A stretch of DNA of 64,000 nucleotides. It comes from Roseococcus sp. (GTDB taxonomy: Bacteria > Pseudomonadota > Alphaproteobacteria > Acetobacterales > Acetobacteraceae). This document shows, piece after piece, positions 1 to 5,257 of this stretch. A program made the translations under genes and the position numbers. The DNA lies in assembly GCA_026414745.1 (NCBI GenBank), contig JAOAIK010000029.1, positions 1 to 64,000 on the forward strand. Reading direction: 5' to 3'. The stretch's first letter is position 1; each line of letters begins with the position of its first letter. The notes below the pieces were generated by a model. The model made no database searches, was not told the origin of the DNA, and saw nothing but the letters and a program-made list of their open reading frames with translations.

Positions 1-152
1 GGGCAGCATCGCGCCGCCGCGGTTTTGGCTCGATCCCGTATCCCGCATGTCGCGCTGCTTCGAGGTGCGCGGCGCGGGGACGCTGGCGGGCTGGCGGGGG
101 AGACGCGGGCATGCTATCCTCGCGCCCGTCAATAGTCTCGGAATGCCTTCCC

Positions 153-182
153 CCGCCCGGCCGCGCCCCCCGCGCCGGGCGG
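153..182 (-). terminator. Terminator-like hairpin at the end of the island mini-operon
   Basis: Perfect 9-bp arms (153-161 and 174-182) enclose a 12-nt GC-rich loop, a few bases beyond the stop of the small ORF at 188. No T-run follows on the minus strand, so intrinsic termination is uncertain. Confidence 0.3.
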
Positions 183-187
183 TTTCG

Positions 188-280
188 TCAAGGGCTGGAA
201 AGCGCCGCCACGCGCAGCACCGCCGCCAGCAGCAGCAACGCAACGCTCTCGCCCAGCGGCACGAGCGGCACAACGCGCAT
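188..280 (-). CDS. Possible 30-residue hydrophobic peptide
   Basis: An ATG-started ORF overlaps the stop codon of the upstream AlpA-like gene by one base (TGATG), the classic arrangement for translational coupling. The product is 30 residues, starting MRVVPLVPLGES and continuing as an Ala/Leu/Val-rich helix long enough for one membrane segment. A GAGG-type ribosome site lies about 9 bases upstream. I recognise no family. It could be a small membrane peptide of the island or a chance ORF in GC-rich DNA. The tight overlap and the hairpin just downstream favour a real gene, but only weakly. Confidence 0.35.
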   Translation of the reverse strand: MRVVPLVPLGESVALLLLAAVLRVAALSSP

Positions 281-516
281 CACGGGGTGCCTCGCCGCGC
301 GTCGGCCTCGGCCGCGCCGCCGCTCCGGATCGTGGCGCGGGGCAACCCCTCAATGAACGCCAGCACAGAAGCGGTGTCGACCAGCGCCGATCGGCCGAGC
401 TTCCTCACGGCAATCTCGCCGCGGGCCGCGGCGCGATAAAGCGCGGATCGCGACAGGCCGAGCACCTTCGGCGCCTCCGCCATTGGGACCAAGAGCGGCA
501 ACGAATCCCGAATCAT
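280..516 (-). CDS. AlpA/excisionase-like helix-turn-helix protein
   Basis: A 78-residue DNA-binding protein. Residues 11-60 carry the MerR-like winged HTH typical of AlpA/Xis proteins: a helix around EAPKVLGLSRSALYR, then the wing (EIAVRKLGRSALVDTASV) and a closing helix (FIEGLP). In integrative elements such proteins bend DNA for excision or activate the integrase gene. The start was set at the ATG at 516, where the similarity begins and a GGGAG site sits upstream. The frame stays open far upstream, but that part is Arg/Ala-rich and looks like non-coding GC bias. It follows the integrase and the 277-residue ORF on the same strand, with a 40-bp inverted repeat just upstream that could be its operator. 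Confidence 0.75.
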   Translation of the reverse strand: MIRDSLPLLVPMAEAPKVLGLSRSALYRAAARGEIAVRKLGRSALVDTASVLAFIEGLPRATIRSGGAAEADARRGTP

Positions 517-593
517 GCGCGAAATCTCCCGCCGCCTTGCGGCATGCGCGGCGGCGCGGCGGCACTTTGGGGCACGTCGCGCGCCGCTCGCAC

Positions 594-633
594 ATAGCGA
601 AATGCGCCCCGCGCGCGGGCGCCGTTTCGCTAT
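594..633. repeat. 40-bp inverted repeat between two island genes
   Basis: Outer 9-bp arms (594-602 ATAGCGAAA, 625-633 TTTCGCTAT) are perfect complements. Inside them a second 6-bp pair (604-609, 617-622) closes a 7-nt loop. The repeat contains the TAG stop of the leftward ORF ending at 630 and lies about 80 bp upstream of the AlpA-like start. The AT-richer outer arms stand out from their surroundings. It could be a terminator or an operator/Xis site. Confidence 0.6.
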
Positions 634-1463
634 ACGCCCGCGCGCGCCGCCCGAACGCGATGCGCGAGCGCGTGCCGCCCGCCGTCGCTCGCCAGCACCC
701 TCAGTCGCGCCCGCCACGCGCGATCGCGCGCGCTCGGCCGCAGCGCCTTCTCGGCGCGCGCGAGGAACAGGCCCAACACCGCTTGCAACCACTCGATCGC
801 CGGCCCGCCCGGGCGCGCTTGCGGCACGTCGCGCGGCACAACCAGGCGCGCCGCTCGGCCGAAGGCCGCGCGGTAGGCAGCGCAGAGACGGGCGATCAGC
901 AGGCGCTCGGCCGAGTCGGCTTGTCGCGCGCTCCGCGCCACGCGCCGCGCGCGCCATCGATCGGCCGCCAGCGCCGCCGCGCGCTCGATCACCGGCACGC
1001 CCGCCGCCGCCGTCGCCAGCGCCTCCGCGTCGGACGGGGGGCGCGCCTCGCCGCCGCCGCCAGCGCGGGCAACCGCGACCAGCGCGCCGACGCGCAGCAT
1101 CAACTCGGCGTCATGCTCGGGCAGCTCGCGCGCGAGAAGCCACACCCCGCCCCCGCCCGCGAGGTCGGGCACGTCGCCGGGATCGCCAAGCCCGAGAAGG
1201 CGTGCGAGCGCGCTCGCCGCGCGCGCCACCTCGCGCGCCCACGTTTCGTGTTCGCTCGCGCGGGCGGCCTGCCCCATGCGCGCGTGCAGCGCAAACTCGC
1301 GGAAGGCGCCGTCCAGCATGCGCGCGATCGCGCCTGGGTCGGCCCGCAGTCGCAGCCCGGTGCGCGCCGCGGTTTCGGTCACGTCCTCGGCGCAGAAGAG
1401 CGGCCCGCGCGCGACCACCTCGGCCAGCGTGCCGAGCGGCGCCGCACGCGGCCGGCGCGGCAC
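630..1463 (-). CDS. Island-associated hypothetical protein
   Basis: Predicted 277 residues, Ala/Arg-rich and apparently all helical, with no signal peptide or membrane segment and no motif that gives a function. It starts 6 bases after the integrase stop codon and reads the same way, so the two are probably co-transcribed. A C-terminal GGPAIEWLQAVL segment resembles the 'GPF-x-RF-x-xAV' type ending of uncharacterised ORFs that often sit beside integrases in alphaproteobacterial islands; this is recollection, not a search result. The stop codon lies inside a 40-bp inverted repeat. I do not recognise a function. Confidence 0.6.
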   Translation of the reverse strand: MPRRPRAAPLGTLAEVVARGPLFCAEDVTETAARTGLRLRADPGAIARMLDGAFREFALHARMGQAARASEHETWAREVARAASALARLLGLGDPGDVPDLAGGGGVWLLARELPEHDAELMLRVGALVAVARAGGGGEARPPSDAEALATAAAGVPVIERAAALAADRWRARRVARSARQADSAERLLIARLCAAYRAAFGRAARLVVPRDVPQARPGGPAIEWLQAVLGLFLARAEKALRPSARDRAWRARLRVLASDGGRHALAHRVRAARAGV

Positions 1464-1468
1464 GGGGG

Positions 1469-2722
1469 CTAGCGCCGACGCGCGAGCGGCACCACCGCCG
1501 CCCCGCCCGCCGCGATCCCGTCGAGACGGTCGGCGAGCATTTGCAGCGCGCGCCCCACCTCGGCCCCGTAGCGCGCGCGGTTGTAAACCGCCGCGAGGGG
1601 GGAATGCACGCTCGCATGATTCAGCGCGGCCTCGATCACATGCGGCTCAACGCCCATCTCGCCGAGCAGCGTCGCGCCGGTGCGCCGCAGATCGTGGCGC
1701 GTCCAGCCCGCCGTGCCCGTTTCCCGCATCAGCCGCTTGGTGGCGCGATCCCAGTTTGCGAGCTTGCCGCCGCCGGACGTGGCGAACACCCGCGCGTCCG
1801 GCGCGCCCGGCCCGATGGCGCGCAGCAGCGCCACGGCTTGCCGCGAGAGGGGCACGCGATGCGGGCGGCCGTTCTTCGTCTCGGCGATGCGCCACTCCGC
1901 GGCGTCAAGGTCCACGTCGCGCCAGCGCGCTTCGGCCGCCTCGTCGCGGCGGCACAGGGTCAGCAGCATGAACATCAATGCGCGCCGGAAGGGGTCGCCA
2001 CCGGCGAGCGCGGGCAGCAGCGCCGCCAGTTCCTCGCGCGTCAGCACCCTCTCGCGGCGCCTCACCGGCGCGGGCGGGTCGATCAGCGCCGCCTCGCGCG
2101 CCACGTATCCGCGCCGCGCCGCCCATTTCAGAATGGGCCGCACGTAGCGCACCGCCGCCGACGCGCTGGCCTTTGACGGGTAGGCGTCCGCTGCCATCTG
2201 GAAATCGCCCGCCGTCAGCGTGACCAGCGGCCGGCGCAGCAGCTCAGCGAAGACGGTCTCCACCTTGCGGCGCATTTCGGGCCACGTCTTGCGGTCGCGC
2301 CCCGGCCCGATGGCGCGCGGCTTGGGGGCATCGGCGGGCGCGTCGCCGGGCTTGGCCACTGGCCCGCCGTAGAGGTCGAGCAGCGCGCCGAGCGTACCTA
2401 TTCCCGCCCTCGCATCGCGGCCGATGGCGCGCATCTTCCGCGCCTCCGCGATCGGGTCGGCGCCGTCGCGCACACTGACGCGCAGCGCGCGCGCCTTTTC
2501 GCGCGCATCTGCCAGGCCGAGCGCGGGCCAGCCGCCGAGCGGGAAGCGGCGCATGCGCCCATGCCTGTCGCGGCAGGCCAGCACCCACGATGCGGCCCCG
2601 CCGGGCGTCACGCGCAACCGCAATCCGTCCTGCCCCGCGTCGGCCAAGTCGCGCCGCTGGCCCGTGCTGGCAGCCTTCATCAGCGCCGCCCGGATTGCCG
2701 TTTCTGTGAGCCGCACCGGCAT
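1469..2722 (-). CDS. Tyrosine recombinase (P4-type island integrase)
   Basis: Site-specific recombinase that inserts and excises the island. Residues 1-100 match the N-terminal arm-binding domain (DUF4102 type: DGLRLRVTPGGAASWVL, FPLGGWPALGLADAREKA). Residues about 105-215 are the core-binding SAM-like domain and 225-390 the catalytic domain. The catalytic residues are all visible: Arg258 (LTLCRRDEAAE), Lys283 (ETKNGRPHR), His343 and Arg346 (RHDLRRTGAT), His369 (ALNHAS) and the nucleophile Tyr380 (AVYNR). At 417 residues it is normal length and looks intact. It lies about 220 bp from the tRNA-Lys fragment and is preceded by four 11-bp repeats that may be its arm sites. Confidence 0.93.
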   Translation of the reverse strand: MPVRLTETAIRAALMKAASTGQRRDLADAGQDGLRLRVTPGGAASWVLACRDRHGRMRRFPLGGWPALGLADAREKARALRVSVRDGADPIAEARKMRAIGRDARAGIGTLGALLDLYGGPVAKPGDAPADAPKPRAIGPGRDRKTWPEMRRKVETVFAELLRRPLVTLTAGDFQMAADAYPSKASASAAVRYVRPILKWAARRGYVAREAALIDPPAPVRRRERVLTREELAALLPALAGGDPFRRALMFMLLTLCRRDEAAEARWRDVDLDAAEWRIAETKNGRPHRVPLSRQAVALLRAIGPGAPDARVFATSGGGKLANWDRATKRLMRETGTAGWTRHDLRRTGATLLGEMGVEPHVIEAALNHASVHSPLAAVYNRARYGAEVGRALQMLADRLDGIAAGGAAVVPLARRR

Positions 2723-2759
2723 CGCCTGACCCTCTCCAACCCCCCCCGTGGATGCCCCC

Positions 2760-2803
2760 GGGGCTTCGCCGGGGCTTCACTGGGGCTTCACCGGGGCTTC
2801 AAC
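2760..2803. repeat. Four tandem 11-bp direct repeats upstream of the integrase
   Basis: Four contiguous units of GGGGCTTCRCC type at 2760, 2771, 2782 and 2793 share GGGGCTTC in every copy and vary only in the last three bases. They begin 38 bp upstream of the integrase start and lie between it and the tRNA fragment, where arm-type integrase or Xis binding sites are expected. The binding role is inferred from position. Confidence 0.7.
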
Positions 2804-2943
2804 AGCCCGGCATCACGGGGAACGTCCCGCGACAAGAGTCATGGGGTCAATCGGGCGGAAACGCAAGTTAATCCTCGATTTTTTGAAGCGCCCCGATACG
2901 TCAGAAAACGGCGCGAGATTCTCGCCGCGCCCGCCGCGAGGTA

Positions 2944-2986
2944 ACTTTTAATCATGTGGTCGCGGGTTCGAATCCCGCCCGGCTCA
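2944..2986 (+). other. Attachment site: displaced 3' half of tRNA-Lys(UUU)
   Basis: The segment reads as the 3' half of a tRNA: anticodon loop CTTTTAA (2945-2951, anticodon TTT), anticodon-stem 3' strand TCATG, variable loop TGGTC, a perfect 5-bp T-stem around TTCGAAT (2967-2973), acceptor 3' strand CCGGCTC and discriminator A. No D-arm or 5' acceptor strand lies upstream. This is the footprint left when an element integrates into a tRNA 3' end and restores the tRNA at the other end. No CCA is encoded. The last three bases double as the stop codon of the convergent DUF3141 gene. Confidence 0.85.
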
Positions 2987-5257
2987 TTCCCCGCCCTCGA
3001 TCCCGAGCACCGCGCGCTGCCGCGCCAGCATGTCGCGCGCGTGCTCGCCGAGCTCCTCCTCCGGGCCGGCGACGGCCGCCACCGCCGCGAGGGCCCGCCG
3101 GCGGTCCTCCGGCTCGGGCAGCAGGAGCGGCAGGGTCTCAAGCGCCAAGGCCGGCTGCAGGGCGACGATCAGCGTCTGTTCGCGGATCAACTCCTGCCGC
3201 TGTTCGGCGGTCAGGGAGCGGAAGGGCTCCTCGCTCGTCAGCAGCAGGTTGGAGCGCTCGAGGCGGGAGCGCCGCACGGCCCCCCGTGCCTCGGCCAGCA
3301 GCACGAGCATCCGCACGACCGCCTCCGCATAGCCGCCCCGCGGCGCGAGCTGCTCGGCCCGACGGGCGGCCTCCTCGAGCAGCGCCGCCGCGTGCTCGCC
3401 TTGCGCCGGCCGGGCGGGGCCGCGCGCGCCGATGCCGAGCGCGGCAAGCCCGCCATAGACGGCATGGAAGGCCAGCTCGGCTCCCGCATCGAGCGCTTCC
3501 CGCCAGCGATGGATCCCCTCCTCCACAGCGTCGGCCCAGAGGCGCTCCCAGGCGAGGAAGGGGTTGTCGGCCGAGGCCGGCGCGCGGTGCCGCCGCGCGA
3601 GTTCCGCCGCCGGCGCCACCCAGGCGAGGAGGGGATTGCGGTCGGAGACCAGGGTGCGGCGCAGCCGCAGCGGGTGCAGCCGGCGGCCCAGCTCCGCCCC
3701 TGCCTCGGTGGCCAGCGCGCGCACCACGGGGCTCGCGACCGTGTCGTAGAGGGTCTGGGTCAGTTCCGAGATCTGCGCCACGGCCGGAAAGGCTTGGTTG
3801 TCCGCCTCGCCGGCCAGGGCGCGGATGTCGCTCATCTTCCGCTCGACGAGCTCGACGGCGTAGGCCGTGTTGGCCCCGCCCTCCTCGGTGATCACCATCT
3901 CGTAAAGCCCGGGCGCCACGGCCTCGATCATCTCGAGGGTGGTCGCGATCTCGCTGTGCTCCTTCCGCGCCACCTTGCCTGAGACGAAGATGCCGAGGTG
4001 CCCGATCTCCTCGTGCAGCAGATAGACGATGGTCTGCCCGCGCGCGCGGATCTCGCGCTCGTCGCGGTACACGTCCGCGATCCAGCGCAGCGCCTGGCCG
4101 GGGGGGGTGATGTTGTCGCCCGCCGAGGCGAAGACGATGACGGGCGAGCGCACCGCGCGCATGTCGAAGCGGCCCTGCTCGGGCCCGGCCAGCGCGCCCT
4201 GGGCGAAGCGGTCGCCGATGAAGAGGTTGTCCACGATCCAGCCGATCTCGTCGCGGTTCATCAGGAAGAAGCCGCCCCACCAGCGCTCGAACTCCAGGAA
4301 GCGCGGCCCCTCGTGGTCGGCCTTCTCGTAGAGGTCCCAGTATTTGCGGAACCAGGTGTTGGCGGGCGAGAGGGCCTCGAAGTTCAGGACGAGGTTCGCG
4401 CCGTCGAAGCGCCCGTTGCCGAGATCGGCGAGCAGCGCGGCGGGCCAGCCGCCCCCCGCGAGCCCGCCGAGGTAGCGCATCGGGTTGCGCCCCTTCTCGC
4501 CCGCCCAGTAGGAGAGGGGGGCGCCGTTCAGCACCAGCGGGCCGACGAGCTCGGGCTCGGCGCTGCCCAGCATCATCACCGCCCAGCCGCCCTGGCAGTT
4601 GCCGATCACCACCGGCTTGGGCGCATCCGGGTGGCGTTCGCGCACCAGGCGCAGGAAGGCGCCCTTGGCCGCGGTGATGTCGAGGATGGTCTGCCCCGGC
4701 TCCGGGTCGCGGAAGAAGATCACGAAATAGACCGGGTGGCCGCGCCGCAGCGCCACGCCCACCTGGCTGTCGGACTTGAAGCCGCCGATGCCCGCGCCGT
4801 GTCCTGCCCGCGGGTCCACGATCACGAAGGGGCGCAGCGCCGGGTCGGTCGCCGGCATGCCCCGCGGCGGAAGGATGCGCACCAGCGCGTAGTTCACCGG
4901 GCGCGCCAGGTGGCGGCCGTCGAGCAGCGTCTCGTAGTCGAAGACGAGCACGGGCGGGCAGCCCGCCTCCTCATGCGCGATGAAGGTGTTGCCCGCCTCG
5001 CGCATGATGTCGAGGAAGAGCGTGGCGCGCTGCGCCGCGTCCACCGCGTATTCCGCCGCCGCGGCGACCAGTGCCGGAGGCGGGACGGGCGGGGGCAGCG
5101 CCTCCGGCAGGCGGGGCCTGCTGGCGGCGAGGCCGATGGCGCGGGCCGCGGCGAGCTCCATCATCTCCTGCGCCTGCGCGGCGATGCGGCGCCAGGCCTG
5201 CTGGCCGCGCTCCGCGAGTTCGAGGAAGGCCGAGGCGGGATGGGGGGCGACGTTCAT
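2984..5257 (-). CDS. DUF3141 protein, PHA-synthase-like alpha/beta hydrolase
   Basis: A 757-residue cytoplasmic protein of the DUF3141 family. Residues about 100-440 form an alpha/beta-hydrolase core resembling polyhydroxyalkanoate synthase: a Cys nucleophile in a PhaC-type lipase box (GNCQGG, Cys221), Asp381 in SAGDNITPP and His420 in EEIGHLG, the same Cys-Asp-His order as PhaC. The C-terminal 300 residues are a helical extension not found in PhaC. The gene overlaps ackA by 4 bases (ATGA), so it is translationally coupled to acetate metabolism. Its substrate is unknown: acyl-CoA, polyhydroxyalkanoate or an acyl transfer are all possible. Its stop codon lies within the tRNA-Lys 3' end at the island junction. 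Confidence 0.85.
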   Translation of the reverse strand: MNVAPHPASAFLELAERGQQAWRRIAAQAQEMMELAAARAIGLAASRPRLPEALPPPVPPPALVAAAAEYAVDAAQRATLFLDIMREAGNTFIAHEEAGCPPVLVFDYETLLDGRHLARPVNYALVRILPPRGMPATDPALRPFVIVDPRAGHGAGIGGFKSDSQVGVALRRGHPVYFVIFFRDPEPGQTILDITAAKGAFLRLVRERHPDAPKPVVIGNCQGGWAVMMLGSAEPELVGPLVLNGAPLSYWAGEKGRNPMRYLGGLAGGGWPAALLADLGNGRFDGANLVLNFEALSPANTWFRKYWDLYEKADHEGPRFLEFERWWGGFFLMNRDEIGWIVDNLFIGDRFAQGALAGPEQGRFDMRAVRSPVIVFASAGDNITPPGQALRWIADVYRDEREIRARGQTIVYLLHEEIGHLGIFVSGKVARKEHSEIATTLEMIEAVAPGLYEMVITEEGGANTAYAVELVERKMSDIRALAGEADNQAFPAVAQISELTQTLYDTVASPVVRALATEAGAELGRRLHPLRLRRTLVSDRNPLLAWVAPAAELARRHRAPASADNPFLAWERLWADAVEEGIHRWREALDAGAELAFHAVYGGLAALGIGARGPARPAQGEHAAALLEEAARRAEQLAPRGGYAEAVVRMLVLLAEARGAVRRSRLERSNLLLTSEEPFRSLTAEQRQELIREQTLIVALQPALALETLPLLLPEPEDRRRALAAVAAVAGPEEELGEHARDMLARQRAVLGIEGGE

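Follow-up and report, generated by a model that had tools for sequence, protein, structure and literature searches.

A displaced tRNA-Lys(UUU) 3′ half beside a tyrosine integrase gene marks the border of a genomic island in Roseococcus sp.

Introduction

What does half a tRNA gene signify when it stands beside an intact integrase gene? The question is raised by a 64,000-nucleotide stretch of DNA from Roseococcus sp. (hereafter the window, meaning the whole stretch analysed), in which an earlier note had recognized the 3′ half of a tRNA-Lys(UUU) gene and had taken it for an island boundary. The evidence given below supports that reading: we consider it nearly certain that tyrosine recombination inserted a genomic island here, within the anticodon-loop part of tRNA-Lys(UUU), and that the tRNA was restored.

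Results

A tRNA 3′ half lies next to a tyrosine integrase gene

The features at this end of the window are as follows.

2944..2986, plus strand: displaced original 3′ part of tRNA-Lys(UUU), positions 31-73, and attR core (int-side junction); 43/43 to G000:C4:28636-28708 in the window's own genome (G000), with an empty site in a relative (G010)
1469..2722, minus strand: tyrosine integrase, 417 aa, Arm-DNA-bind_3 and Phage_integrase (Pfam 2e-17 and 5.9e-19; phrog_1 integrase 1e-48)
630..1463, minus strand: 277-aa ORF of no known family, an island gene; profile and family searches blank
280..516, minus strand: AlpA/excisionase-like helix-turn-helix protein (HTH_17 8.8e-7; phrog_66 7.5e-5)

All 43 bases of the fragment match tRNA-Lys(UUU) (tRNA numbering by hand), beginning with the final base of the anticodon stem's 5′ strand and ending at the discriminator, so that the earlier description, a 3′ half running from anticodon loop to discriminator, was correct within one base. 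The 5′ half that the note had reported missing was indeed not found beside the fragment, and ARAGORN predicts no tRNA at that spot. The note had also allowed an att core of up to 43 bp; the duplication is exact over 43 bases, and one mismatch to the intact tRNA-Lys appears when it is lengthened to 46 (2941-2986). This exact 43-mer would be expected by chance about 10^-20 times (both strands, 3.2-Mb genome, window base composition). The integrase ORF, said to be intact and about 220 bp away, is open over 417 aa and starts at 2722, on the island side and 221 bp from the fragment. This confirmed the observation of a tRNA 3′ fragment beside an integrase.

Both integrase domains score above their cut-offs (Arm-DNA-bind_3 63.5 bits against 27; Phage_integrase 68.9 against 27.1). 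Residues R258 or R259, K283, H343, R346, H369 and Y380 are conserved in a two-sequence alignment, and we take them to be the candidate catalytic R-K-H-R-H-Y set. No relative of the integrase turned up when viral contigs were scanned. Searches of Pfam, NCBIfam, PHROG and PADLOC at E 0.001 left the 277-aa ORF unmatched, and among 397 genomes of the family it matched at E 1e-5 in its own genome only. The AlpA-like ORF likely starts at 516, within a longer ORF that extends to 957; it matches the excise profile at 5.4e-5, below the curated cut-off, and the protein is a candidate recombination directionality factor.

Stand-alone tRNA fragments do occur in genomes (PMC9897764 treats the distinction), and the fragment could in principle be a decayed tRNA pseudogene or the product of a local duplication, unrelated to the integrase. 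Both the 43/43 identity and the sharp start at position 31 speak against such an origin, as do the integrase start and the repeats that lie at near-fixed distances from the fragment in many relatives, the empty site in G010, and those relatives in which island, intact tRNA and fragment share one contig. We regard this explanation as very improbable.

An intact tRNA-Lys(UUU) lies at the end of another contig

The assembled genome comprises 63 contigs, and the window is the start of contig C47. Searching for a tRNA-Lys that ends in the same 43 bases, as the note had proposed for the upstream side, gave one intact match, at G000:C4:28636-28708 on the plus strand, 213 bp before the end of contig C4. 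It is called complete by ARAGORN and is the sole intact tRNA-Lys(UUU) found in the assembly, although at a completeness of 91.5% a second one could be missing. A gene for a cyclophilin-type peptidyl-prolyl isomerase (Pfam 1.1e-38) precedes it on C4. The note's prediction of an intact tRNA-Lys at the far left end of the island thus agrees with a gene that is present and correctly oriented, the link between C4 and C47 being the inferred part. The fragment is of the 3′ type, and its orientation and order fit the Islander rule if C4 precedes C47, as synteny in G010 implies.

Some temperate elements break a tRNA gene without restoring it and supply a separate tRNA gene instead, as in the tRNA-dependent lysogeny of mycobacteriophages, and such phages include users of tRNA-Lys(UUU) (PMC10865867). 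The complete tRNA-Lys on C4, directly beside the left arm of the island, makes a mechanism of this kind exceedingly unlikely here. Because the common core reaches the discriminator, integration would have rebuilt the tRNA gene.

Since the tRNA-Lys lies near the end of C4 and the window at the start of C47, both island borders are assembled and the interior falls in the assembly gap. The visible portion amounts to at least 213 + 2943 bp (~3.1 kb).

1..2943, no strand: visible right end of the island; the contig begins at 1 and the empty-site alignment puts the border at the core

Base composition gave no boundary signal and no sign of foreign DNA at the island. G000 was searched for the interior with a 648-aa protein from the island in G113, a protein that itself matches no Pfam family; this search, which had no positive control, gave nothing. 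In sampled relatives, proteins with DUF927, DUF3987 or AAA_25 are taken for replication proteins, and an AAA_25 search of G000 picked up, where contig C27 begins, a truncated AAA_25 protein that has its own helix-turn-helix gene upstream. AAA_25 matches occurred in 14/14 control genomes, so that the C27 match alone says little; the protein cannot be linked to this island. The stretch concerned (G000:C27:1-1811, L166) is another possible mobile element.

A relative carries the empty site

C4 sequence up to the tRNA end was joined to the window sequence that follows the fragment, and 60 genomes were searched with this query. In G010, from the same genus, all 600 query bases matched in one piece with 83% identity, and an intact tRNA-Lys(UUU) lies at the joined junction (G010:C3:90367-90994). 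The order there is contiguous: cyclophilin gene (96% identity), intact tRNA-Lys, DUF3141 gene, the DUF3141 protein sharing 91% identity over 600 aa with that of the window. No match to the integrase was present in G010 at E 1e-30. This locus is the empty site (attB). The earlier note had held that a complete tRNA-Lys at this spot in island-free relatives would count against an island; that reasoning runs backwards, as such a gene, found in G010, is the empty attB and supports the island.

2984..5257, minus strand: chromosomal flank, DUF3141 gene (Pfam DUF3141 5.7e-238), adjoining the intact tRNA-Lys in G010

The DUF3141 reading frame ends in a stop codon that overlaps the fragment's three terminal bases; the insertion left this codon intact. 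Among 29 relative loci tested, 26 have the cyclophilin gene, and the DUF3141 gene was seen at G010's locus only (in stretches of ~1.5 kb or less on each side of the match); the empty site itself was seen in this one relative. We rejected both the pseudogene and the unrestored-tRNA readings.

A further genome of the genus has a different integrase-like stretch (41% over 147 aa) near tRNA-Lys (G011:C3, L007), and the tRNA-Lys locus may on this account be an integration hot spot.

Arm-like repeats occur at both island ends

Between the integrase gene and the fragment lies a set of short direct repeats.

2760..2803, plus strand: 11-bp repeat GGGGCTTCRnn in four tandem copies, candidate arm sites for the integrase; pattern match, in near-fixed register to the core

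Two more GGGGCTTCRnn copies are present in the tail of C4, starting 40 and 51 bp past tRNA position 73. Throughout G000 the tandem two-repeat pattern was found at the two predicted island ends only, and the reversed-pattern control gave 0.

The register of the repeats was then measured at related ends. At the 23 int-side ends covered, the pattern sees repeats in 21, and 20 of the 21 have a repeat that starts 161-165 bp from tRNA position 32, with neighbours usually in 11-bp steps (the loop position of L044 was corrected by 7 bp by eye). Repeats at L116 and L123 are too diverged for the pattern, L106 has none at the common register position, and isolated extra copies lie off register at L110, L117, L119, L120 and L130. 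On the far side, repeats begin 40 bp from position 73 in G329, in G119 and in the island described here; in nine plus five other relative ends the spacing is 60-63 bp (computed from tRNA ends), longer by about two helical turns. Such regular spacing speaks for sites of protein binding that keep phase with the core, and the pattern suggests that the integrase would bind the 11-bp repeats as arm sites.

As C4 and C47 are not joined, their two ends might derive from different elements: the gap could hide several islands in tandem, or there could have been two insertions or a subsequent rearrangement, and a tandem-like arrangement does exist in G034:C274 and perhaps in G095. We judge this unlikely: G000 shows the repeat pattern at two places only and has one integrase of this kind at E 1e-5, and the flanks join colinearly in G010. 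On the evidence of these colinear flanks, C4 and C47 would border a single insertion on its two sides. Islands in tandem within the gap would be compatible with this reading of the scar.

Related integrase loci have the same layout

With the integrase pair as query, nine loci were obtained from named genomes, the closest of them in Falsiroseomonas selenitidurans (72% identity), and at E 1e-60 the integrase is present in 30 of 397 family genomes, its own included. The comparison covered 32 unique relative loci, leaving out duplicates (L104, L107, L108, L124, L035), a remnant (L049), distant integrases (L036-L039) and G118:C16 and G422:C283 (two of the 31 relative integrase places).

A tRNA 3′ half lies just outside the integrase start (up to 420 bp) in 24 of the 32, three of them called from weak matches to a small tRNA set (L120, L122, L131; E about 5e-5 to 1e-7). 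The same scan on the opposite side of the integrase, which was short for L047/L124 (2 bp), L119 (51) and L050 (96), gave one weak 22-base match. One locus has a 5′ half instead (L047), and at four the tRNA is complete or almost so and oppositely oriented (L125-L128, the L128 match being cut by the 420-bp limit). In the remaining three no tRNA match was found within 420 bp: L046, at a RadC gene; L111, at a WbsX gene; and L129.

The far ends were examined in turn. Far repeats follow an intact tRNA of the fragment's isoacceptor in G060, G061, G062 and G034, and also in G065, with one mismatch in the pattern. Of 18 genomes scanned for the repeat pattern, 15 contained it (G156, G431 and G372 did not), G127 and G379 at the int side only. 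At 11 of 14 further far places the repeats again come after a matching intact tRNA; nine of the 11, all except G119 and G132, lie on the contig of their integrase, and in G118 fragment and intact tRNA have only a 20-base exact stretch in common. The other three places comprise another 3′ half (G095), WbsX-gene sequence (G298) and one match, at G298:C1:3484751, that was judged to be due to chance. Thus, far repeats with an intact tRNA of the matching isoacceptor are found in 17 genomes in total, own included; an intact partner was not found for G067 and G064. Where far repeats and integrase side share a contig, the shortest distance between them is 6.2 kb (G198) and the longest about 60 kb (G298).

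Several loci depart from this scheme. In G066 a decayed remnant of ~1.5 kb on one contig retains an intact tRNA-Lys, one repeat, an integrase remnant and a degraded fragment. In G034 (G034:C274:19403-24048; L063/L074/L075) a tRNA-Lys 3′ half followed by left-arm repeats lies ~4.5 kb downstream of an intact tRNA-Lys, which looks like a tandem island array. In G064 (G064:C237; L047/L098/L102) two tRNA-Arg(CCU) 5′ halves stand ~1.1 kb apart beside a related integrase, perhaps in tandem; this 5′-fragment configuration is the rarer kind.

Cargo could be read in some relatives. A ~10.7-kb island at tRNA-Lys(CUU) (G329:C34:4000-15000, L162) encodes a 1662-aa Type ISP restriction-modification enzyme; a QatC-like gene is present in G034, and MobA together with an arsenic-permease-like gene in G095.

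Related integrases use different targets

Fragments in relatives derive from tRNA-Lys(CUU), Lys(UUU), Thr(CGU), Arg(CCU), Thr(GGU) and a CAU tRNA, and a further type is probably Arg(UCU). For Thr(GGU), the ARAGORN call for the intact partner gave confirmation; the CAU and Arg(UCU) types were read by eye. At L046 the int-side flank (CALAEG010000240.1, upstream of 10001) holds a fragment of a RadC-domain gene (Pfam 2.6e-33), with the same repeats beside a related integrase and no tRNA; the far end was not found, and a switch to a protein-gene target is possible. The int-side flank of L111 encodes a WbsX glycosyltransferase (Pfam 4.3e-79). In that genome a related island of ~60 kb (G298:C1 ~4254899 to 4314709; L111, L154) has nearly the same WbsX sequence at both ends and no tRNA.

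On a quick tree of 32 integrases, with 28 labelled rows and seven target types, at least 12 target changes are needed; in 200 label shuffles the mean was 15.7, and none gave 12 or fewer. The number of changes is rough, as only seven of the 29 inner branches are strongly supported and L131 sits on a long branch. Thus, in rough terms, targets appear to be partly inherited and often switched.

Discussion

The proposed course of events at this locus is as follows. The attP of the island would have carried tRNA positions 31-73. Strand exchange would then have joined the chromosomal 5′ half to the island-borne 3′ half, so that a complete tRNA-Lys stands at the left end (C4), while the 3′ half that was there before would have been displaced to the right end (2944-2986). 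The integrase is predicted to contact the core, at the anticodon stem-loop, as well as the 11-bp repeats of the two arms, of which the int side has four and the far side two; excision may be directed by the AlpA-like protein. The exact crossover point, the role of the AlpA-like protein and the present mobility of the island are likewise inferred.

Integration into the anticodon loop with restoration of the tRNA is a well-known, ordinary route of island entry. Integrase subfamilies reportedly differ in the sublocation they prefer within tRNA genes, and the anticodon-loop sublocation is said (Williams, in 2002) to be flanked by symmetric stem sequence. For ICEs of Acidithiobacillus, recombination specificity is reportedly set by a segment of the tRNA anticodon stem/loop, to go by the title of work by Castillo et al. 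in 2018; the type of element may differ from ours. Among the matches listed for open-licence literature on Roseomonas, Acetobacteraceae, Gluconacetobacter and arm-type sites, no title or abstract opening described this island family.

In the Islander study, 2083 of 3919 islands have an anticodon-centred site and 3760 of 3919 a 3′ fragment, within an interval filter of 2-200 kb on one replicon (PMC4383910). The present island has in common with those described there an intact tDNA with a displaced 3′ fragment, a tyrosine integrase and an anticodon-centred site, but here the interior lies in an assembly gap, the integrase is at the fragment end and the arms carry GGGGCTTCR arm-like repeats. A parallel in target is attB-4 of mycobacteriophages (for example Boilgate), which also involves tRNA-Lys(UUU), a 43-bp attP/attB core over the 3′ half and a tRNA restored at attL (PMC10865867). 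These are, however, actinobacterial phages, the Boilgate core has five mismatches to attB, and the likeness comes from descriptions of the sites.

Taken together, the relatives make it reasonably probable that this integrase clade, mostly of Acetobacteraceae, combines a fixed attP architecture with switching cores, so that core specificity would evolve apart from arm recognition. The architecture would consist of 11-bp GGGGCWTCR arm repeats in set register, with the integrase usually at the fragment end, and the cores would move repeatedly between anticodon loops, those of six or more tRNA types, and also to protein genes (RadC, WbsX). The principle of switching is not new, as it is already reported that Fionnbharth-related integrases in mycobacteriophages and their relatives use Lys(UUU), Lys(CUU) and Ile2(CAU) genes (PMC10865867).

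With these results a tool-free guess becomes a tested island boundary, with attL, attR and an empty site, and the assembly gap is placed inside the island. The layout also provides a rule for finding such ends in draft genomes: at the intact tRNA, a repeat pair 40 or 60-63 bp past position 73, and at the fragment end, repeats whose start lies 140-185 bp ahead of the fragment's anticodon loop. Since relatives carry restriction-modification, QatC-like and arsenic-permease-like genes, ends of this kind can delimit defence and resistance cargo.
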